A stretch of 64,000 nucleotides of DNA from Spartobacteria bacterium (GTDB taxonomy: Bacteria; Verrucomicrobiota; Verrucomicrobiia; Chthoniobacterales; UBA10450). The translations under genes were made by a program, and so were the position numbers. Below, piece after piece: positions 14,649-43,650 of this stretch (positions are counted from its first letter, which is position 1; each line of letters opens with the position of its first letter). The notes under the pieces are model-generated. The model was not told the origin of the DNA and ran no database searches. It worked only from the letters and a program-made list of their open reading frames with translations. Where the stretch lies: assembly GCA_003167555.1 (NCBI GenBank), contig PMSN01000023.1:248001-312000 (forward strand), read 5' to 3'.

Positions 14649-14743
14649 TGTCATCCCGAGCGCGGCGAAGCGAAGTCGAGGGATCCCGCCATATCGGCTG
14701 GAAGGTAACGCAACGGGATTCCTCGACTTCGCTCGGAATGACA
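14649..14743. repeat. Palindromic repeat, family A copy 1 (between gapA and pgk)
   Basis: TGTCATCCCGAGCG...GAAGTCGAGGGATCCC...GGGATTCCTCGACTTCGCTCGGAATGACA. Confidence 0.9.
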
Positions 14744-21034: not shown

Positions 21035-23524
21035 GTGCCTTCCAAAGCCGGCCCGCTATCTTCGGCGCTGATGAAGAAAAAGGCGCGCCGGACAGCGCGA
21101 GAAACGGCTTCCCTCCCTGTTCGCACCGCCCCGAAATCTTCACGCCGTTCTTCTGCGCCATCGGCGGCACGCCGAGATGATTCGGAAGGCCTGACGCTGT
21201 CGTCGCAGAAATCTGGCCGGCCCTTTCTCGTTTTCCTGCCAAACAGGCGGGAAAAAATTCTGGTCACGAATGCGCTCACACGCGCCGGTATTCGCGCGGA
21301 AATATTTGAGCAACTCGATCAGCTCGCCACCTGCGTCAGCGATCAGACTGGCGCGCTATTGCTCGCGGAAGAAGGGTTGGCCGGCGCGGTCGCTACGCAG
21401 TTAATGGAGCGCCTTCGCGCCCAGCCCAAGTGGTCGGACTTGCCCCTGCTCGTGGTGACTGGCCGGGCCCAAGTGCACCGGCGCATCCGCGACCTGGCCG
21501 GGGCAAGCGCGAACGTGCTGTTTCTCGCGCGGCCGTTGCGCGATTTCACGCTGATCAGCGCGGTCCGGGCGACATTGCGCGCGCGGCGAAGCCAATACGA
21601 AGTGCGCGACATAATTGAAGAACGCGACACCGTTCTCTCCAGCATTAGCGAGGCGTTCTCCGCCCTCGATCGCGATTGGCGTTACACCCACGTGAACGAC
21701 CGGGTCGCCGAGATGGCGGGTTGGCCGAAGGAAAAAATGATCGGGCAAGTGATTTGGGAAATTTTCCCCGAAGCAGTCGGGACGGAATTTTATGAGAAAG
21801 CCCAACGCGTCATGCGCACGCGCGAGCCGAGCCACGGCGAATTCTTTTATGCGCCCTGGGGCCGCTGGGTCGGTACCCGGATGTATCCGACAAAAGACGG
21901 CCTGGTCATTTTCCGGGCCGACATCACCGCGCGCAAAAGGCAGGAGCAACTCGCTCATGAGCGCGAGGCGAAGTTACGAGAGAGCCAGGAACGCTTGCAG
22001 CTCGCGACCGCAGCGGCGGACATCGGCACCTTCGACTTCTATCCGAACACCGGCGAGTTGCAGTTCTCCGATCGCACCCGGCAGATGTTCGGGATTCCGC
22101 CCGAGATGAAAGTGACCTACGAGATCTATCTCGCGGGCGTGCATCCGGACGATCGCCACATCGTCCATGAGACCGTCGCCCGGGTGCGACAGGTGGGGAG
22201 CACGGGGCGTTTCGATATCGAATACCGCACGATCGGAATTGCGGACGGCCAAGAACGATGGGTGGCCGAGCGTGGCCAAGCGCTCTTGGATTCCTCCGGA
22301 GAAGTGACGCGGTTCATCGGCACAATGCTCGAGATTACGCATAAAAAAAATGCCGAGATACTTTTGCAAAGCGCAAAAAATGCCGCCGAAGAAGCGAACC
22401 GCGCCAAAGACAAATTTCTCGCGATGCTCTCGCATGAGTTGCGCACGCCGCTCACGCCAGTGCTCATGACCATCGCATCGCTCCGGCGCCAGCCGGAATT
22501 AAGCGAAGATATGCGGCGCGATCTCGAGATGTTGCAGCGCAATGTCGAGCTCGAGGCGCTCCTCATCGACGATCTCCTGGATCTCACTCGAATCACCCAC
22601 GGGAAGCTCGAATTGCGCAGCGATGCGCTCGACATCCACAGCGCCCTCGACCAGGCGCTGAGCATTTCGGCCGGCGATCTGGCTGGGAAAAATATCAGCG
22701 TGACCCGGCGGTTCGAGGCGCGGGAACATCATTGCTGGGCCGACCCCGCGCGCTTGCAGCAGGTATTTTGGAACCTGGTGAAAAACGCCGCTAAATTCAC
22801 ACCACAAGGAGGCCGCGTGAGCGTCGCCACGCGCAACGACGAAGCCCATCACGTCGTGATCGAGATTTCCGACAACGGCGTCGGCATCGAGCCCGAATTG
22901 ATGCCGCGAATTTTCGATGCGTTTGAGCAAGGCGGCCGAACCGTCACGAGCAAATATGGCGGGCTCGGACTGGGACTCGCGATCTCGAAGCGCGTCGTCG
23001 ATCTCCACCAGGGCTCGCTCGAAGCGCGAAGCGCGGGGCCCGGACAAGGCGCGACGTTTGTCGTCACGCTCAACGCGATGGAGACGTCGCTGCTCGAGGG
23101 GCCGGTTCTGTTCTTGGAAAGCGAGCCGAGTGTTACGCGGCTTATTCAAATTCTCTTCGTCGAAGATCATGAGGACACGGCGCGCGCTTTGAGCCGGCTC
23201 CTGATGAACGATGGCTACGCCGTCAGCCACGCCAGCAGCCTGGCGCGGGCGCGCGAGCTGGCGGCCGGACAACACTTCGATCTGGTGATCAGCGACCTTG
23301 GTTTGCCCGACGGCAGCGGTCTTGATCTGATGCGGCAGTTGCTTGAGACGTGGCATTTGCCCGGCATCGCACTGAGCGGTTTCGGATCGGAAGATGATGT
23401 CGCGGCGAGCACGGCAGCGGGTTTTACGGAGCACATCACCAAGCCGGTGGATTGGGAGCGGCTGCGGAGAGCGATCGAACGTTTGACGCCGGCGAAAGAT
23501 TCAGCCGAGCGCAGCGCGGCGTAG
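21035..23524 (+). CDS. Hybrid sensor histidine kinase (N-terminal receiver-like, PAS domains, HisKA/HATPase, C-terminal REC)
   Basis: MLSHELRTPLTPVLM H-box, DNGVGIEPEL, GGLGLGLAIS, REC LFVEDHEDTARALSRLL...DLVISDLGLPDGSGLDL. Confidence 0.93.
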   Translation: MPSKAGPLSSALMKKKARRTARETASLPVRTAPKSSRRSSAPSAARRDDSEGLTLSSQKSGRPFLVFLPNRREKILVTNALTRAGIRAEIFEQLDQLATCVSDQTGALLLAEEGLAGAVATQLMERLRAQPKWSDLPLLVVTGRAQVHRRIRDLAGASANVLFLARPLRDFTLISAVRATLRARRSQYEVRDIIEERDTVLSSISEAFSALDRDWRYTHVNDRVAEMAGWPKEKMIGQVIWEIFPEAVGTEFYEKAQRVMRTREPSHGEFFYAPWGRWVGTRMYPTKDGLVIFRADITARKRQEQLAHEREAKLRESQERLQLATAAADIGTFDFYPNTGELQFSDRTRQMFGIPPEMKVTYEIYLAGVHPDDRHIVHETVARVRQVGSTGRFDIEYRTIGIADGQERWVAERGQALLDSSGEVTRFIGTMLEITHKKNAEILLQSAKNAAEEANRAKDKFLAMLSHELRTPLTPVLMTIASLRRQPELSEDMRRDLEMLQRNVELEALLIDDLLDLTRITHGKLELRSDALDIHSALDQALSISAGDLAGKNISVTRRFEAREHHCWADPARLQQVFWNLVKNAAKFTPQGGRVSVATRNDEAHHVVIEISDNGVGIEPELMPRIFDAFEQGGRTVTSKYGGLGLGLAISKRVVDLHQGSLEARSAGPGQGATFVVTLNAMETSLLEGPVLFLESEPSVTRLIQILFVEDHEDTARALSRLLMNDGYAVSHASSLARARELAAGQHFDLVISDLGLPDGSGLDLMRQLLETWHLPGIALSGFGSEDDVAASTAAGFTEHITKPVDWERLRRAIERLTPAKDSAERSAA

Positions 23525-23531
23525 TTGATTG

Positions 23532-25046
23532 TCAGTGATTGCTGCCCAGCAGCATGTCCTTGAACGAGCCGCGCATATCCGCCTGCACCTTCGCCGCCGT
23601 GACCGTTTGCGGCGGCGCGTGATAGTTGTGACACGTGATGCAATCGGAGGAGACCTTCTTTGTCTTTGGGCTGTGGCAAACGACGCAGCTTGCCTTCGCT
23701 GGCATGAGCACATCGGAGGTCTCGTGGCTCTGGCGCGCGTCGCGGTGACATTCATCGCAGCGCACACTCACATGCTTGGCGTGATTGAATCGCGCCTGCG
23801 GCATCCAATGATCGACCAGGATGGGCTTCGTGATCACGGGCGCGGCGTTGCCCGCCGCTTTCACGTCATGGCAAAAGGCGCAGCCGGCGAAGTTGGCGCG
23901 CGTCATCGCGGGCATTTCCCGTTGCGGCTTGTAGGGATCTTTTTCGAAAAAAACCGCCTGCTCCAGTTGGTCGCCGCTGTGAAATTGCTCCCGCAACTGC
24001 CTCACTTGTTGCGCCACGAAATTTTGCACTTCGCTCTCACTCGTCTTGCCTTTCTTTAGCCGCGCGTAATCGGCGTATTGCGCCGGCAACGTCCGCAGAA
24101 AAGTTCGGACGAGAGCGACGTCGCCGTGCGGAATTTTCATCTCCGGATTTTTCGCATCGAACTGAAGCGAATGACACGCCTGGCAATTCGCCGCGAAACT
24201 GATCCGCTGATAAAAACGCCCTTCGGGATCGGGCTTGTGGCAGTAATTGCAATCGAGTTTCTGGCCGCTCACCTGCGGAATGTCGCCCGCGAAATGGCGC
24301 TGATGATTGAACCGGAGCACATCGGGATCGCGCGCCTTCTCGCGCACGAGCTGAAATTCCGGATGATCGCCGTCGAAGGAAGCGAACACCTGCGTGTAAC
24401 CACGCTGCGGCCGCGGCATTTCCCAAACCACCTGCTGCGGCGGATGCGAGCGAAGATGAAAGACCGCCGGTGAAAGTTGCGTCCCCTTTTGCGCCGAGGC
24501 TTCCATCACGCCGCGATTGTTGTGACAGGAAGCACACTGCGAATCCGCGACGCGCTCCATCCGGCCCGGGCCGAGATGTTCCTGATGGCAGACGGAGCAC
24601 GAGCGGTTCTCGACCACGTTCGGCTCATGCAGATTGTATTTCTTTTTCTCCTGCTCGAAGCGCGGATTTTCCTCGTGGCATTTCTGACAGCGCAGATCGA
24701 TCGAGGTGAAATCGATGCCGCGGTGAAACCGCTCGTTCACGGCGGTTTTGAATTTCGCCAGCGTGATTTCCTGGCCGAACGCGGCGCTTTTATCATGGCA
24801 GACGGTGCACTTCGCCGCGTATTGGGCGTGGTTGCTGGAAATTTTTCCCGAGTTGAAAAATTCTTCACTCACCCGCTCGCGAAAAATCATCTTCTGGTAG
24901 ATGAGGATGCCGGCGACACCTCCGGCGAGCGCGACAAAGCTGGCGCAGAAACGCGCGACTCGCCACGGATGCTTCCGTCTGTAATAGCCGAGATTGCCTT
25001 TGTAACGTTCGGCTATCTGCTTCTGGGTCCGTGTCGGCGTAGCCAT
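23532..25046 (-). CDS. Membrane-anchored multiheme cytochrome c with 10 CXXCH motifs
   Basis: N-terminal TM then CTVCH, CQKCH, CSVCH, CASCH, CNYCH, CQACH, CAFCH, CDECH, CVVCH, CITCH. Confidence 0.93.
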   Translation of the reverse strand: MATPTRTQKQIAERYKGNLGYYRRKHPWRVARFCASFVALAGGVAGILIYQKMIFRERVSEEFFNSGKISSNHAQYAAKCTVCHDKSAAFGQEITLAKFKTAVNERFHRGIDFTSIDLRCQKCHEENPRFEQEKKKYNLHEPNVVENRSCSVCHQEHLGPGRMERVADSQCASCHNNRGVMEASAQKGTQLSPAVFHLRSHPPQQVVWEMPRPQRGYTQVFASFDGDHPEFQLVREKARDPDVLRFNHQRHFAGDIPQVSGQKLDCNYCHKPDPEGRFYQRISFAANCQACHSLQFDAKNPEMKIPHGDVALVRTFLRTLPAQYADYARLKKGKTSESEVQNFVAQQVRQLREQFHSGDQLEQAVFFEKDPYKPQREMPAMTRANFAGCAFCHDVKAAGNAAPVITKPILVDHWMPQARFNHAKHVSVRCDECHRDARQSHETSDVLMPAKASCVVCHSPKTKKVSSDCITCHNYHAPPQTVTAAKVQADMRGSFKDMLLGSNH

Positions 25047-25055
25047 GATGCGCGC

Positions 25056-26468
25056 TCAGTAATAAAAAAGTGTTACCACCGCGTGCCACATCGTCAGGAG
25101 CAGAAGAAAAAATGAAAACGGCACGTGGATGAAAAGCCAGCCATGAAGCCAGTGTTGAAGGCGCGTCTGCAAATCGAGCATGCGCCGCTCATCGCACCAA
25201 CCCTGGATTTCTTCGACGCGGCTGCGGTATCCTTCCGCGACCCGCAGTTTGATGAAGCGGAAGGTGTCGTCTGAAAAACGCGCGTTGTTAAAACGCATTC
25301 GGTCGCCGCGATGCGCTTTCAAGTATGGAAGAACCTGGCGATCGATGAACTCGACCAGCGCTGCTTCCGACGCCGGATCGCCGGGCGGCGGCGCGGGCTT
25401 CGCGGGCGCGGCGGCTGGTTTGGCGGCAGCGGGTTTTGCTGCGGCGGGCGGCGCAGGTTTCGGCGCAGGTGGTGGCGCGGGCGCCGCTGCTGGCGGAGGC
25501 GCGGGTTTTTCCGCAGGTGGGGCAGCAGGCGCGACCGGTGGAGTCGGAGCGGCTTCGTCTCCCGCAGGAACGGAAGCGCGTGCGACGGGTTCGCCCGGCG
25601 GTTCGCTTTGCACTCGCGCAGTGGGTGTGCCGATTGTTTCCGCTTTCGGCGCGGCCGGTGATGCCGCGGCATTCGCTGCGGATGGAATCGCAGGCTCAAC
25701 GGCTGGCTCCGCGGCTTTCGTGGCGGGGGCCGCAAACGTTGTTGTCGCAGCGGCGGCGACAGGCGCGGCGGTGGGCGCCGAACCCGTGGCCGATTTCGCC
25801 CGCGCCACCGGCGTACTCACACCTCCCTTGGTCGAAGCCATCACCGCCGCTCCTGCCGTCGCCGCTTTGCTTGCGCTTGCCGCCGGTGCGCCGGTGTCCG
25901 GTTTCTTCGGCGGAGCGGGCTTGAATGAGTCCCGCATCTTCTCGGCAGCGACGGCAAGTTGAGAGCGAATGTGCGGGATTTGTTCGAAAACGGTTTCCGC
26001 GGGCAGCCGCTCTTTCATCAAGCGCGGCATGAGATGCTGAAGCACGAGTCCGTAAATGCCGCTCACCATCACAATGGCAAAAAGCGCCATGAGCAGCGTC
26101 GTCATCGGGCCGCCGAGGCGAAAGCCGCTGTGCAAAATCACGAGCGGGATCGTGAGGAGCGTGAGCCAGATATGAGCGCGCAACCACCGTTGCACCGTCC
26201 CGACGCGCCAAAGCGGGATTTTTTTTCGGAGACTAAGCAATGCGGCAAAAACAAAAATCGCGAGCGAGATCGCGCCGAACGCCAGTCCGAGCGGAGTGCC
26301 GCCGACGCTGTGATGTTCCGACGCCGTTTGGATGAACGATACCGGCACGTGAATTCCCGGCGGCATCCGGTCCGGATGAAAATTCGCGACGTAGAGAAGG
26401 CAGGCCGCGACCGTCGCCAGACAAACGAACACGAACCAGGGAAAGTGCTTCCAGTTAGTGATCCGCAT
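25056..26468 (-). CDS. Cytochrome b-like integral membrane protein with long Ala/Pro-rich insert
   Basis: TM helices with paired His (RAHIWLTLLTIPLVILHSGFRLG; LQHWLHGWLFIHVPFSFFLLLLTMWHAVV); long low-complexity A/P segment; 9-nt gap to the decaheme gene. Confidence 0.75.
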   Translation of the reverse strand: MRITNWKHFPWFVFVCLATVAACLLYVANFHPDRMPPGIHVPVSFIQTASEHHSVGGTPLGLAFGAISLAIFVFAALLSLRKKIPLWRVGTVQRWLRAHIWLTLLTIPLVILHSGFRLGGPMTTLLMALFAIVMVSGIYGLVLQHLMPRLMKERLPAETVFEQIPHIRSQLAVAAEKMRDSFKPAPPKKPDTGAPAASASKAATAGAAVMASTKGGVSTPVARAKSATGSAPTAAPVAAAATTTFAAPATKAAEPAVEPAIPSAANAAASPAAPKAETIGTPTARVQSEPPGEPVARASVPAGDEAAPTPPVAPAAPPAEKPAPPPAAAPAPPPAPKPAPPAAAKPAAAKPAAAPAKPAPPPGDPASEAALVEFIDRQVLPYLKAHRGDRMRFNNARFSDDTFRFIKLRVAEGYRSRVEEIQGWCDERRMLDLQTRLQHWLHGWLFIHVPFSFFLLLLTMWHAVVTLFYY

Positions 26469-26473
26469 GGGAA

Positions 26474-26545
26474 AATTTCAGATTGAAGATTTCAGATTGA
26501 TGCGGCTTCCCAATTTGCAATCTGCATTCAGAAATCTGCAATGCT
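26474..26545. repeat. Direct/inverted repeat patch ATTTCAGATTGA between the CNB-FeS and cytochrome b genes
   Basis: ATTTCAGATTGA-AG-ATTTCAGATTGA then CAATTTGCAATCTGCATTCAGAAATCTGCAAT. Confidence 0.8.
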
Positions 26546-28225
26546 TCAGTGAGTGTGATGTGCCTGGTAATGACGCGTGGGCGACCACTGATCCTTGAGC
26601 AGCCTGTTCTGTATTTCCAGGGCATCGCCAAAAAACCGTTGCGGATCGACGCGTTTCGCGGCGTCGTGCGGGCAGGCATACACGCAGCTCGGCACCGATA
26701 ATTGTGTGCAGAGGTCGCACGTGTTCGCCTTATAAGCCGTCGTCTTTTTCTTCTCGATCTTCACCGTCGGCGGAATGTTGGGATTTCCCGATTTAACCTC
26801 GGTCTTCACCTCCTTGATCACTTCGAGCGGGTGCATGTTGATGTTCCCGTAGGGGCAAAGCTCGGCGCATTTTCCGCAGCCGATGCACCAATCCTCGATG
26901 ATGATCTCGAGGTTCTCCTTCCGGCGAATCGAACCGACCGGGCATTGCGTCATGCAAAGCGGATCGCGGCAGGAGCGGCACGCCGTCGCGACGAGAAAAT
27001 GATCGTAGCGCAAACCGTCGCGCAGCAGCCGCGAGACGCCATCGTGCGCTTTCGCGCAGGCCTGGACGCAGGCATCGCAGCGCGTGCAATTATCGAGATC
27101 GATGAGGAGAAGATTTTGCGCTTCGAACAATCCCTGGTTCAGATAATCGTCAAGCCGGAGGCCGGGCGGGATCGCTCGCGATTGGGTCGCCGCCATCCGC
27201 GCCTCGGCCACGGGCTCGATTTGCGCCCGCACGTCCGGAAATTTTTCCAGCATCAGGTTGAACTCAGCGCCTGGAATTTTCACCAGGTCCACCGCATCCA
27301 GCGCCGCGCACGTGGCGATTCGCTTGATCGAGCGCAGCAATCCGATTTCGCCGAAGTAATCGCCGCGGCTCAAATACGTCCGGACCATTTCGCCGCCGGG
27401 CATCGCTTGCGACACGCGGACCATGCCCGATCGGATTAGATAAAACGCGTCCGCTTCCTCGCCCTCCTTGCAGATGACCTGGTTCTGATTGTAGGAAACG
27501 AGTTCGACCTTTTCTTTGAGATACGCGAGGAATTCATCGCCGACCGTCGCGAAGAGCGGCACGCTCCGCAGATGCGTCTCGAGTGAGCGCTGGCGATATT
27601 TTTTGTCCAGCTCTTCCTTGAACGACGTGCCTTTGAACGTCGGCGCCTTTACTTTCGAGGTGGCCTTGGATGCGTCGGAGACCTGACGATTTCCCACGAG
27701 CATGTCGAGAATCACGCGCAGCATTTCCACCATGACGCAGGGCTCTCGCGTGATGACCGTGGCCGACCGCGGTTGAAACGTGCGGCAGGTCATCTCGCCG
27801 AAAAGTTCGCCCGGGCCGAGCTGCGCGATCGGTTTGTTCATGGGCAGATCGATGTTCGCGTCGATCCCGATAAATTTTCGTTCGTGTGCCTCCGCGCGCT
27901 TGTCCTGGCCGTCGTCGGTCAGGAAACTTTTCATACGGGCCACGCTTCGCCCGAGGAAACCGAAGGCTGGGCGAGTGCGGAGATGCGCCATCGGATTGTT
28001 GATGGAGATATCGACCGTGCCCGAGACGATGTAGTAGGCGGTCGAGCCGAACTCGCCTTCGGTGCAGACGGTTTCGCCTTTGCGGTAACGATGGAGAACT
28101 GCGGCGCCTTTGGCCCAATTGTCCAACTGGCCGCGCGAGATTTCCTTGAGCGCCGGCAAAAATTCGATCAGTTGATCGACGCCCAGCGGTTCACCCGAAG
28201 TTAGCTTCCCGGCAGTTTCGTCCAT
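26546..28225 (-). CDS. Fusion protein: two cyclic-nucleotide-binding domains plus a four-cluster [4Fe-4S] ferredoxin (DmsB/NrfC-like)
   Basis: cNMP cassette FGEMTCRTFQPRSATV and FGEIGLLRSIKRIAT; Cys clusters CTRCDACVQAC, CRSCRDPLCMTQCP, CIGCGKCAELCP, CDLCTQLSVPSCVYACP. Confidence 0.9.
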   Translation of the reverse strand: MDETAGKLTSGEPLGVDQLIEFLPALKEISRGQLDNWAKGAAVLHRYRKGETVCTEGEFGSTAYYIVSGTVDISINNPMAHLRTRPAFGFLGRSVARMKSFLTDDGQDKRAEAHERKFIGIDANIDLPMNKPIAQLGPGELFGEMTCRTFQPRSATVITREPCVMVEMLRVILDMLVGNRQVSDASKATSKVKAPTFKGTSFKEELDKKYRQRSLETHLRSVPLFATVGDEFLAYLKEKVELVSYNQNQVICKEGEEADAFYLIRSGMVRVSQAMPGGEMVRTYLSRGDYFGEIGLLRSIKRIATCAALDAVDLVKIPGAEFNLMLEKFPDVRAQIEPVAEARMAATQSRAIPPGLRLDDYLNQGLFEAQNLLLIDLDNCTRCDACVQACAKAHDGVSRLLRDGLRYDHFLVATACRSCRDPLCMTQCPVGSIRRKENLEIIIEDWCIGCGKCAELCPYGNINMHPLEVIKEVKTEVKSGNPNIPPTVKIEKKKTTAYKANTCDLCTQLSVPSCVYACPHDAAKRVDPQRFFGDALEIQNRLLKDQWSPTRHYQAHHTH

Positions 28226-28290
28226 GTCGCTGCCAGGGATGATAAGCAACCGCCCCTTTGGGGTGGAAGCATTTTAACAACGGCCATGCT

Positions 28291-28372
28291 TGTCATCCCG
28301 AGCGAAGTCGAGGGACCCCGATGAGAGTCGCTCGACGCACGGCGAGGTCCCTCGACTTCGCTCGGGATGACA
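28291..28372. repeat. Palindromic repeat, family A copy 2
   Basis: TGTCATCCCGAGCGAAGTCGAGGGACC...GGTCCCTCGACTTCGCTCGGGATGACA. Confidence 0.92.
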
Positions 28373-35336: not shown

Positions 35337-35428
35337 TGTCATCCCGAGCGAAGTCGAGGGACCTCGTCGTGCGTCTAGCGACTCTCCTCGGGGTCCCTCG
35401 ACTTCTCTTCGCTCCGCTCGGGATGACA
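35337..35428. repeat. Palindromic repeat, family A copy 3 (upstream of polX)
   Basis: TGTCATCCCGAGCGAAGTCGAGGGACC...GGTCCCTCGACTTCTCTTCGCTCCGCTCGGGATGACA. Confidence 0.92.
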
Positions 35429-42036: not shown

Positions 42037-43650
42037 TTAATCCTTCGCTGGGTGCCGCTGCGATCTGCCAATAGCGCGAAGGCGTTCGCCACATAAGGCG
42101 CTCCATGCATTCCCGACAGAATCAAACTTCTGTAACGAACGCAGAGTGTCATGGGAGATTTTGATCGCAACGGTTTCCTCCAACACGATTGCTTCCGAGC
42201 CATCGGGAGAGCCGATATCTGAAATAATACCGACCGCCTGCTCGGTGCCAAACCCACCGGTGGAGTGCAAAACCACCGCGCCCCTTTTGGAGGGATCGAT
42301 GCGGACCCGGCCGTGAAAGACGATGAAAACTGACGAGGTGAGATCCAGCTTCGTCCCCACGGCATACTTCTCGCAGGAAGCGGGGATGGGGGTTGCGTCG
42401 TCGCCGGCACCGTTCTCCAAGGGAAAAAACTTCTTGGACTTCAATACATTTTCAAGAATGCGATTCTTGATAATATTATAAACGCTTGATGCCACCAGGG
42501 GCGCGTCGCCCAGCACTTTCGCAAAGGGATCCTTATGGAAGGCCAGGAGCAAACTGTCATCGACAGTCCGAATCGTAGCGGTGCGGGTAATGTTCGGAAT
42601 CCACAGACTGAATTCTCCAATAATCTGTCCAGGCGCGATCCGAATTAGCTTATCCTGTCCGGGCACGTCTACGACGATGGTGCCCGAGACGGGGAAAAAG
42701 CAACTGTCAGCGAGATCGCCGCATTTGCAGATAATGCTATCGGCTTTCATGAGCAGGGGCGTGGCTATTTCGATGACGCGGAAGAGGACGTCGGGGGGCA
42801 TCAAGCTAAAGAGGGAGTGCAACTGGACTGGATAGGAAGCGTTCGGTCGTTCGGTCGCCGCCCCGATCATGGCGCACAATTCCTGAACCGCTTTTCTCTC
42901 GTCCAAGTCGAGGAGAAATTTAGCCGCAGCAAGCGCCGCTATTGGTTCGCTCGACCTCATGGTGTCGTGGATAAGGAATTTGTATTCCTGGATTGTTTTC
43001 CGCCAAAGCCCCCCGATCGCTTGCCAACGCCGATCCTTCGCCTCCGCGTCTTGCAAACCAAGCTCATGCCGATTTGCGTTCATCACTTCGACGTGAACTC
43101 CATGCTTCACTGTTCGCCAGTAAACGTCGCCGAAGGCAAATTCACCCTCGCGCTGTCCTTTGATGTACAGATCGAAATACTGTTTTGAGACGAGCAGCTG
43201 GCTCGATGCGGCTACCGATAACGCACGAGCTGCCATATTGATCCCCATGCCCCAAACGTTTGTGGTCCGGCCCAATTCGCGGGCTTCCTGCACGGTCCCG
43301 GAGTGCAAGGCAAGTCTGAGCTTGAGACTCTCCCCTGTGCGGGGACGCCAATCGGGGTGCTGCATCTTTTCAATGATCGAGAAGGCGACGTCGATTGCCC
43401 GACGACAGGCATTGGAGGAAGCGAAAGTCAGATAGCCGCCATCGCCGGCCGGGCTCCAGCGATAGTCGGGTTCGCCAATGCTGTGGTAAGCCAAGGCCTC
43501 GTTAATCCATCTAATCAGATTCTCGATCGCTTGAATCTGATCGTCGTCATGGAGCATCGAAAAGGAAGAGATGTCCATTCCTAACACGGCGTGGGCACCG
43601 CCAATGTTGACACGTTGCAATGACTTGTTTTGCTTGGAGGCCTTGGTCAT
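42037..43650 (-). CDS. Class III nucleotide cyclase homology domain fused to C-terminal cyclic-nucleotide-binding domain(s)
   Basis: Cyclase motifs GMDISSFSML (metal Asp), PAGDGGYLTFAS (metal Asp), WGMGINMAARAL (Asn/Arg); CNB cassette GQIIGEFSLWIPNITRTATIRT; a second, more degenerate CNB-like segment. Confidence 0.82.
   Translation of the reverse strand: MTKASKQNKSLQRVNIGGAHAVLGMDISSFSMLHDDDQIQAIENLIRWINEALAYHSIGEPDYRWSPAGDGGYLTFASSNACRRAIDVAFSIIEKMQHPDWRPRTGESLKLRLALHSGTVQEARELGRTTNVWGMGINMAARALSVAASSQLLVSKQYFDLYIKGQREGEFAFGDVYWRTVKHGVHVEVMNANRHELGLQDAEAKDRRWQAIGGLWRKTIQEYKFLIHDTMRSSEPIAALAAAKFLLDLDERKAVQELCAMIGAATERPNASYPVQLHSLFSLMPPDVLFRVIEIATPLLMKADSIICKCGDLADSCFFPVSGTIVVDVPGQDKLIRIAPGQIIGEFSLWIPNITRTATIRTVDDSLLLAFHKDPFAKVLGDAPLVASSVYNIIKNRILENVLKSKKFFPLENGAGDDATPIPASCEKYAVGTKLDLTSSVFIVFHGRVRIDPSKRGAVVLHSTGGFGTEQAVGIISDIGSPDGSEAIVLEETVAIKISHDTLRSLQKFDSVGNAWSALCGERLRAIGRSQRHPAKD

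Follow-up and report, generated by a model that had tools for sequence, protein, structure and literature searches.

Most of what is known about extracellular electron transfer comes from Geobacter and Shewanella, and the inner-membrane entry points described for it are quinol oxidases. The Pcc/Mtr conduits of these genera comprise an inner-membrane entry protein of the CymA, CbcL or ImcH type, periplasmic multiheme cytochromes, an outer-membrane barrel and a large multiheme cytochrome; we know of no CNB fusion that forms part of them. In the Verrucomicrobiota, a porin-multiheme system of Opitutus terrae and Ca. Udaeobacter copiosus, in which an eight-heme periplasmic cytochrome adjoins the porin, has been proposed to carry out extracellular electron transfer (PMC5615132). 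The Geobacter extHIJKLMNOPQS cluster, associated with selenite and tellurite, encodes a porin, a b-type cytochrome, a Rieske protein as its Fe-S part, and 10-heme and 4-heme cytochromes, and no CNB protein is listed for it (PMC5877670). Such second-messenger control as we found in the literature (e.g. PMC8835794, PMC12285248) works through gene expression or riboswitches.

Here we analyse a three-gene operon in a 64,000-nucleotide stretch of contig PMSN01000023.1 from a soil Spartobacteria bacterium (the window), encoding a CNB-ferredoxin fusion (CNB-Fd), a membrane cytochrome b and an anchored decaheme cytochrome c. This trio seems to be one half, that of the inner membrane, of an electron conduit from the cell interior to the surface that is widespread and apparently new to the literature; a search of open-access papers found no published description of a CNB-ferredoxin in an electron-transfer cluster. 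Like the Pcc/Mtr conduits, the system combines an inner-membrane entry, periplasmic multihemes, a predicted outer-membrane barrel and a large multiheme cytochrome. By contrast, electrons would enter it through an Fe-S protein of the cytosol together with a b-cytochrome of FRD-like type, with NAD(P)H modules alongside, its outer cytochrome is an LVIVD-repeat protein, and its predicted barrel matches no Pfam or NCBIfam family, those of the MtrB/PioB type included, for which reason MtrCAB-type membership was rejected.

With the verrucomicrobial system, reported in hosts close to the lineages found here, it shares the phylum, a (here predicted) porin gene beside multihemes and a proposed role in extracellular electron transfer; that paper mentions no 4Fe-4S or cyclic-nucleotide protein (PMC5615132). 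The ext cluster has a similar parts list, and our LVIVD cytochrome resembles ExtM locally (E 7e-18 over ~50 residues, 64 bits against a family cut-off of 800). The barrel, decaheme, tetraheme and cytochrome b match neither ExtI nor the other named Ext families, and no component exceeds the NCBIfam cut-offs of the Geobacter ext operon. The two systems are analogous to ours, and the verrucomicrobial one may be identical with it.

Results

The operon runs on the minus strand from CNB-Fd through the cytochrome b to the decaheme cytochrome, with the following features:

26546..28225, minus strand: CNB-CNB-4x[4Fe-4S] ferredoxin fusion, 559 aa, ATG at 28225
27755..27802, minus strand: CNB1 phosphate-binding cassette FGEMTCRTFQPRSATV, residues 142-157 (E144, R153)
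27308..27355, minus strand: CNB2 phosphate-binding cassette FGEIGLLRSIKRIATC, residues 291-306 (E293, R302)
26672..27088, minus strand: ferredoxin part, four Cys clusters from C380 to C518 (16 Cys)
25056..26468, minus strand: FRD-like membrane cytochrome b, 470 aa, ~5 predicted membrane helices
26127..26195, minus strand: helix with the first HX13H pair (H99, H113), both His in 79/79 homologues
25380..25922, minus strand: lineage-specific Pro/Ala-rich linker inside the cytochrome b, short or absent in other orthologues
25083..25154, minus strand: C-terminal helix with the second HX13H pair (H448, H462) and conserved H442
23532..25046, minus strand: decaheme cytochrome c with N-terminal membrane anchor, 504 aa, ten CXXCH

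The coordinates agree with the first-pass annotation, which had described three co-directional, tightly packed genes: the gap is 77 nt between CNB-Fd and the cytochrome b and 9 nt between the latter and the decaheme cytochrome. Its remark that no catalytic subunit adjoins the trio also holds within this window. An in-frame TTG at 28249 is an alternative start for CNB-Fd. A promoter scan of the operon returned no sigma-70-like site, and terminator-like sites there were not more numerous than in shuffled sequence. The system's remaining parts are encoded elsewhere in this genome, on two further contigs, so that the full set is split over three.

CNB-Fd matches PF00027 (2e-34) as well as several Fer4 models, and has relatives in several phyla; its best Foldseek matches are the regulatory tandem CNBs of PKA/PKG (E down to 9e-18). 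Two CNB domains had been noted at the outset, at least one of them with an intact cassette (that of CNB1), and the CNB2 cassette proves to be intact as well. The cassette Glu and Arg are kept almost throughout: E144 and R153 occur in all 79 homologues in which the column is filled, with zero entropy in a 63-row alignment, E293 and R302 occur in 81/81, and few positions of the CNB domains are as well conserved as these Glu and Arg residues. Opitutales-type relatives have a degenerate or lost CNB2 cassette, retain the Glu and Arg of CNB1, and still possess the operon. The ferredoxin part, annotated beforehand as DmsB/NrfC-like with four Cys clusters, carries all 16 Cys in the four four-Cys [4Fe-4S] motifs of HycB/NrfC/DmsB-like 4x[4Fe-4S] ferredoxins; HycB3/HycB4 chains and HydN are among its matches, and 15 of the 16 Cys are present in 81/81 homologues (C506 in 78/81). 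An AF2 model rendered the CNB domains well and the ferredoxin part poorly (mean pLDDT 71), and we consequently claim no domain arrangement for the fusion. CNB-Fd shares the CNB fold and intact cassette Glu/Arg with CRP, PKA/PKG R, SthK and mycobacterial Pat, and the tandem with PKA/PKG; its effector, however, is an iron-sulfur electron carrier, where those proteins have a DNA-binding, kinase, channel or acetyltransferase domain.

The second protein has the transmembrane helices and multiple His expected of the multi-His membrane protein first proposed; it matches nothing in Pfam, nothing in NCBIfam above the cut-off and, by sequence, nothing in the PDB. In the second pair, H448 is found in 73/73 and H462 in 72/72 rows with filled columns, accompanied by H442 in 72/73. 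Two HX13H pairs on two helices also characterise the FRD/NOX/STEAP transmembrane cytochromes b, and by analogy the pairs are expected to hold two stacked b-hemes. Unlike those proteins, this cytochrome belongs to no detectable sequence family and has no fused flavin domain; its redox partner would be the separate CNB-Fd. For a compact orthologue, structure prediction gave a helical membrane protein with a mean pLDDT of 91. Foldseek returned no significant match for the cytochrome b, and structure comparison with VIA-align gave values within noise for helical proteins (STEAP1 Z 7.2, SpNOX Z 5.7).

The third protein has exactly ten CXXCH motifs behind a single N-terminal transmembrane segment, just as initially described; shuffled sequences average 0.005 such motifs, and all ten are invariant across ten orthologues. 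Its Pfam matches are PF14522, PF22113 and PF14537. The NapC/NirT domain PF03264 is missing from them, and an entry of the CymA/NapC quinol oxidase type was rejected on that ground.

The trio occurs together in Verrucomicrobiota, Acidobacteriota, Planctomycetota and Rokubacteria, and the decaheme gene follows in the order CNB-Fd, cytochrome b, 10-heme cytochrome c in 66/67 loci with room for it, which rules out that three unrelated genes stand together by chance. The order seems broken at locus L128 (labelled Actinobacteria), whose contig has the appearance of a rearrangement or a chimera. The first-pass annotation had read the genes as an electron conduit in one operon and named neighbourhood conservation as a check; with the trio co-conserved over several phyla, and forming part of a larger inner-membrane, periplasmic and outer-membrane set, that reading survives.

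Beyond the trio, the larger set comprises a tetraheme cytochrome of the c554 Pfam family, a barrel predicted for the outer membrane, and a decaheme LVIVD cytochrome of ~1,300 aa. Of 39 relatives, the 18 with CNB-Fd all have the tetraheme and the others all lack it. The LVIVD cytochrome is found in 17/18 relatives with CNB-Fd versus 0/21 without, in 23/26 operon-bearing genomes reached via cross-phylum loci, and, among 199 Acidobacteriota, in 10/13 CNB-Fd genomes versus 10/186 others; these co-occurrence tests, that of the tetraheme included, take no account of shared ancestry. The genes for all parts, the trio included, lie together in a single cluster in Opitutales-type genomes, in Acidobacteriota and in Planctomycetota. 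Across phyla, the gene beside that of the LVIVD decaheme encodes a protein of ~600-830 aa, its C-terminal residue aromatic in nearly all complete copies, which is predicted from sequence to be an outer-membrane beta-barrel.

NAD(P)H oxidoreductases of three types adjoin the module, depending on lineage: HoxEFU-like, FAD/[2Fe-2S] and NDH-2-CNB. HoxEF (PF01257, PF01512, PF10589) together with HoxU stands beside CNB-Fd in 44/80 related loci, in the Acidobacteriota and Rokubacteria versions, and wherever CNB-Fd carries a HoxU domain, HoxEF is its neighbour (44 with both, 31 with neither, 3 at contig ends). These HoxEF and HoxU domains are those of the NADH-oxidising HoxEFU/NuoEFG modules, except that HoxU is here fused to CNB-Fd and not to hydrogenase or complex I partners. 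In Opitutales-type clusters a FAD/NAD/[2Fe-2S] reductase takes the place of the Hox module at the same position, and the Rokubacteria locus L098 has an additional NDH-2-CNB fusion. The window's operon lacks the HoxEFU module, and this genome has no dedicated diaphorase beside the operon, only a 32%-identical NuoF relative that is probably complex I-type. The earlier statement that donor and acceptor were unknown is answered in part, by the NAD(P)H modules of other lineages and by the predicted barrel and large multiheme cytochrome on the exit side.

Discussion

We propose that the operon provides the components in the cytoplasm and inner membrane for a cyclic-nucleotide-controlled, trans-envelope, porin-cytochrome-like electron exit conduit, a reading whose chances we consider evenly balanced. 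Electrons would enter the 4x[4Fe-4S] domain of CNB-Fd from NAD(P)H or, in lineages such as the window's with no NADH module built into the operon, from a ferredoxin-type carrier. They would then cross the membrane through the two stacked b-hemes of the HX13H cytochrome to the anchored periplasmic decaheme, and the unlinked tetraheme and the predicted barrel with its LVIVD decaheme, presumably surface-located, would carry them to an acceptor on the outer membrane or further out. Most tentatively, the tandem CNB may bind a cyclic nucleotide and thereby adjust docking or electron entry, in which case a second messenger would open or close the exit route. Invariance of the cassette residues makes the label 'cNMP-gated' plausible, and the genome contains 7 class III cyclase-type matches. 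The broader claim, of a multi-phylum class of conduits that electrons enter in the cytosol through a ferredoxin under allosteric control by cyclic nucleotides, with export gated at the protein level by a second messenger and with NAD(P)H or ferredoxin, and not the quinone pool, as the direct source of electrons, we hold with a little less than even confidence.

The same conduit could operate without cyclic-nucleotide gating, its control being transcriptional and its CNB domains serving as structural or docking scaffolds or binding other ligands. Persistence of the operon in Opitutales-type relatives despite the lost CNB2 cassette would fit this account, and a precedent exists in the family 2B encapsulin shell protein, itself among the CNB-Fd matches, whose CNB has to our knowledge no known ligand. 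Yet even those relatives keep the CNB1 Glu and Arg, and the invariance of Glu and Arg in both cassettes over 79-81 homologues, at some of the best conserved CNB positions, speaks against it; we consider gating-free operation unlikely. A detoxification or soluble-acceptor reductase chain in the periplasm (e.g. for oxyanions like selenite or tellurite, or for nitrogen oxides), with the LVIVD or c554-like cytochrome as catalyst and the barrel as an ordinary substrate porin, would account for the similar parts of the Geobacter selenite/tellurite operon (PMC5877670), the local ExtM match, far under the family cut-off, and the c554 family membership of the tetraheme. It sits poorly with the lack of matches to ExtI and other named Ext families, and of any recognised catalytic reductase, and we think it improbable.

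Electrons might also flow inward, with Fe(II), reduced humics or another donor outside the cell or in the periplasm supplying them to NAD(P)+ or ferredoxin. The components are reversible in principle, Hox-type diaphorases run in both directions, and iron-oxidiser conduits have similar parts lists. Reduction of NAD+ (about -320 mV) from multiheme donors would nevertheless be uphill without an energy-coupling device, none of which is seen beside the operon, and enzymes of the NDH-2 and FAD/[2Fe-2S] reductase types, as found beside the module, normally oxidise NAD(P)H; an inward conduit strikes us as very improbable.

Under the proposed outward reading, the module, which occurs in abundant and mostly uncultured soil phyla, would let reducing power leave the cell. 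CNB-Fd, the HX13H cytochrome b and the barrel-LVIVD pair provide marker genes with which it can be sought in metagenomes. If the CNB domains gate the conduit, they would constitute a protein-level switch on an electron wire.

The CNB-ferredoxin operon and its flanks

Three co-directional genes, separated by gaps of 77 nt (genes 1 and 2) and 9 nt (genes 2 and 3), make up the operon, over the span reported by the first-pass annotation. They and their convergent neighbour are as follows:

26546-28225, minus strand: CNB-Fd (gene 1), 559 aa, ATG at 28225
25056-26468, minus strand: cytochrome b (gene 2), ORF
23532-25046, minus strand: decaheme cytochrome c (gene 3), ORF
21035-23524, plus strand: PAS-PAS hybrid histidine kinase with receiver domain, downstream of the operon and convergent with it, 7-nt gap

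A Pfam match (PF00027, 2e-34) and four Cys clusters bear out the initial reading of the first protein as two CNB domains fused to a ferredoxin. The second, earlier described as a multi-His membrane protein, found no match in a Pfam search; orthologue alignment revealed two invariant HX13H pairs (H99/H113 and H448/H462), the pattern of diheme FRD/NOX-type membrane cytochromes b, and the predicted structure of a compact orthologue is a helical membrane protein (mean pLDDT 91), both of which uphold that description. Within cytochrome b lies a Pro/Ala-rich linker of ~180 residues (window 25380-25922, minus strand), which is long in this Verrucomicrobiota family only and almost missing from other orthologues. 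The third protein has the single N-terminal TM segment and ten CXXCH motifs noted before, and all ten motifs are invariant across ten orthologues.

An ORF comparable to the histidine-kinase gene in size and orientation occurs in several congeners. Upstream of the operon is an SsuABC-like transporter, and between the two lies a perfect inverted repeat (window 28294-28369; CATCCCGAGCGAAGTCGAGGGACC), with further copies at 35340 (exact) and at 14717 and 51963 (3 mismatches); it looks like a REP-like genome repeat.

Conservation of the trio

The first-pass annotation had named a lack of co-conservation as one result that would count against it; the trio proved to be co-conserved across phyla. Congeners share its gene order, as do further genera and families of the order. 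A scan at one genome per species returned 310 CNB-Fd relatives, the best 80 of which belong to Verrucomicrobiota, Acidobacteriota, Rokubacteria and Planctomycetota, with a small number of contigs that bear a Wallbacteria or Actinobacteria label. Among the 67 loci that extend 3 kb or more past CNB-Fd, 66 carry the decaheme gene within 2.5 kb on the same strand, and among the 73 that extend 1.5 kb or more, cytochrome b is directly 3' in 66; five of the seven remaining loci reflect predicted ORFs overlapping beyond the set limit. The distribution is patchy: CNB-Fd or a diverged relative occurs in 13/199 Acidobacteriota and 42/246 Planctomycetota.

A larger gene set

In Acidobacteriota a c554-like tetraheme gene is divergent from the operon. 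Its homologue is present in 18 of the 39 nearest relatives, precisely those that have CNB-Fd; the copy in the window's own genome is on a different contig (G000:C26:89245-90363), adjoining a ResB-like cytochrome c biogenesis gene. A second companion is a cytochrome of ~1,300 aa with LVIVD repeats and usually ten heme motifs (CXXCH, one or two at times CX4CH). It was found in 17/18 CNB-Fd-bearing near relatives versus 0/21 others, in 23/26 operon-bearing genomes reached via cross-phylum loci, and in Acidobacteriota in 10/13 CNB-Fd-bearing genomes versus 10/186 others. Fisher p-values for co-occurrence (1.6e-11, 3.5e-10 and 2e-9) ignore shared ancestry and describe association alone.

Adjoining the LVIVD cytochrome is a 600-830-aa protein that Pfam and NCBIfam searches left unmatched. 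Because nearly all complete copies end in an aromatic residue (LTLTY, FQF, LTF or similar), we predict it to be an outer-membrane beta-barrel. Contig C23 of the window's genome carries its barrel and LVIVD genes. Opitutales-type genomes (a presumed affiliation), one of them single-contig, have a single cluster that unites the genes for tetraheme, CNB-Fd, cytochrome b, decaheme, barrel and LVIVD cytochrome, and similar full clusters were found in Acidobacteriota and Planctomycetota. An exported protein with two HbpS/GlcG-like domains (PF03928) also adjoins the barrel-LVIVD pair in several phyla (loci L176 15583-17943, L214 10200-11867 and L219 14327-15859).

Possible electron input

The first-pass annotation had named no donor. 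The window's operon has no NAD(P)H oxidoreductase module, but in other lineages such enzymes adjoin the core. CNB-Fd of Acidobacteriota and Rokubacteria has an N-terminal HoxU-like domain, with HoxEF (PF01257, PF01512, PF10589) directly upstream; domain and HoxEF are both present in 44 loci and both absent from 31, and 3 loci are cut by contig ends. Mapped onto the CNB-Fd tree, presence of HoxU calls for three or more changes on branches with good support, so the Hox module has been gained or lost while the remaining genes persisted. Opitutales-type clusters instead carry, at the HoxEF position, a reductase of ~430 aa (FAD/NAD-binding/[2Fe-2S]). Since unrelated NAD(P)H oxidoreductases thus stand beside one conserved core, NAD(P)H probably feeds CNB-Fd, neighbourhood being the best available sign.

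Two CysJ-like FAD/NADPH-binding proteins are encoded in tandem next to the LVIVD cytochrome in the window's genome (L176 5765-6973 and 7009-8166); they are kept in about half of related loci and are a possible NADPH input. A type II NADH dehydrogenase with a C-terminal CNB fusion, a second CNB-redox fusion tied to the system, is encoded directly 3' of the decaheme gene in a Rokubacteria locus (L098 13148-14752); at locus L131 (2207-3850) one is encoded a few kb 5' of the cluster.

Predicted cyclic-nucleotide binding

The phosphate-cassette residues E144/R153 (CNB1) and E293/R302 (CNB2) are present in 79/79 and 81/81 homologues with those columns filled, have zero entropy in a 63-row alignment, and are kept in a second HoxU-bearing subfamily (~38% identical). 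In Opitutales-type relatives (e.g. L236 3957-5693) CNB1 keeps FGE...PR and the CNB2 cassette is lost. The window's genome has seven class III cyclase-type matches, one inside the window:

42037-43650, minus strand: class III cyclase-type and CNB fusion, 537 aa, ~14 kb from the operon

Its cyclase domain is weak, scoring 21.7 bits where the PF00211 cut-off is 21.9, and its CNB domain is clear (PF00027, 1e-14); it is a possible maker or sensor of cyclic nucleotides. Together, cassette retention and the cyclase-type matches make nucleotide binding a likely function of CNB1 and a plausible one of CNB2. A truncated second copy of the CNB1 region, ~60-70% identical, occurs at L033 8319-8987 (C18:77312-77809 of the window's genome); its tail resembles hemerythrin by eye, and no ferredoxin, cytochrome b or decaheme follows.

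Comparison with known systems and proposed mechanism

Three known systems come closest: the Pcc/Mtr conduits; a porin-multiheme system proposed for Verrucomicrobiota, whose periplasmic cytochrome has eight hemes (PMC5615132) and with which the outer-membrane half may partly overlap; and the Geobacter extHIJKLMNOPQS cluster, which has a similar parts list and whose ExtM has a short segment in common with the LVIVD cytochrome (PMC5877670). A survey of the quinol-oxidising entry proteins CymA, CbcL and ImcH (PMC6295460) names no 4Fe-4S or cyclic-nucleotide component, and in the open-access literature we found neither the CNB-ferredoxin nor its cytochrome b described, nor the linkage between them. 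We file the system as a putative trans-envelope electron conduit by kind, and not as an Mtr/Pcc family member by sequence.

Beyond gene content, linkage, co-occurrence and ligand residues, which are observed directly, we infer a topology, an electron order and an outward direction, the last because thermodynamics makes it the easier course for NADH and because the enzymes adjoining the operon agree with it. NAD(P)H or ferredoxin would reduce CNB-Fd in the cytosol, which would pass electrons to the two b-hemes of cytochrome b in the inner membrane and on to the anchored periplasmic decaheme; from there they would reach an acceptor through the tetraheme and/or the barrel with its LVIVD decaheme at the outer membrane. 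More speculatively, cyclic nucleotides may gate this electron transfer.
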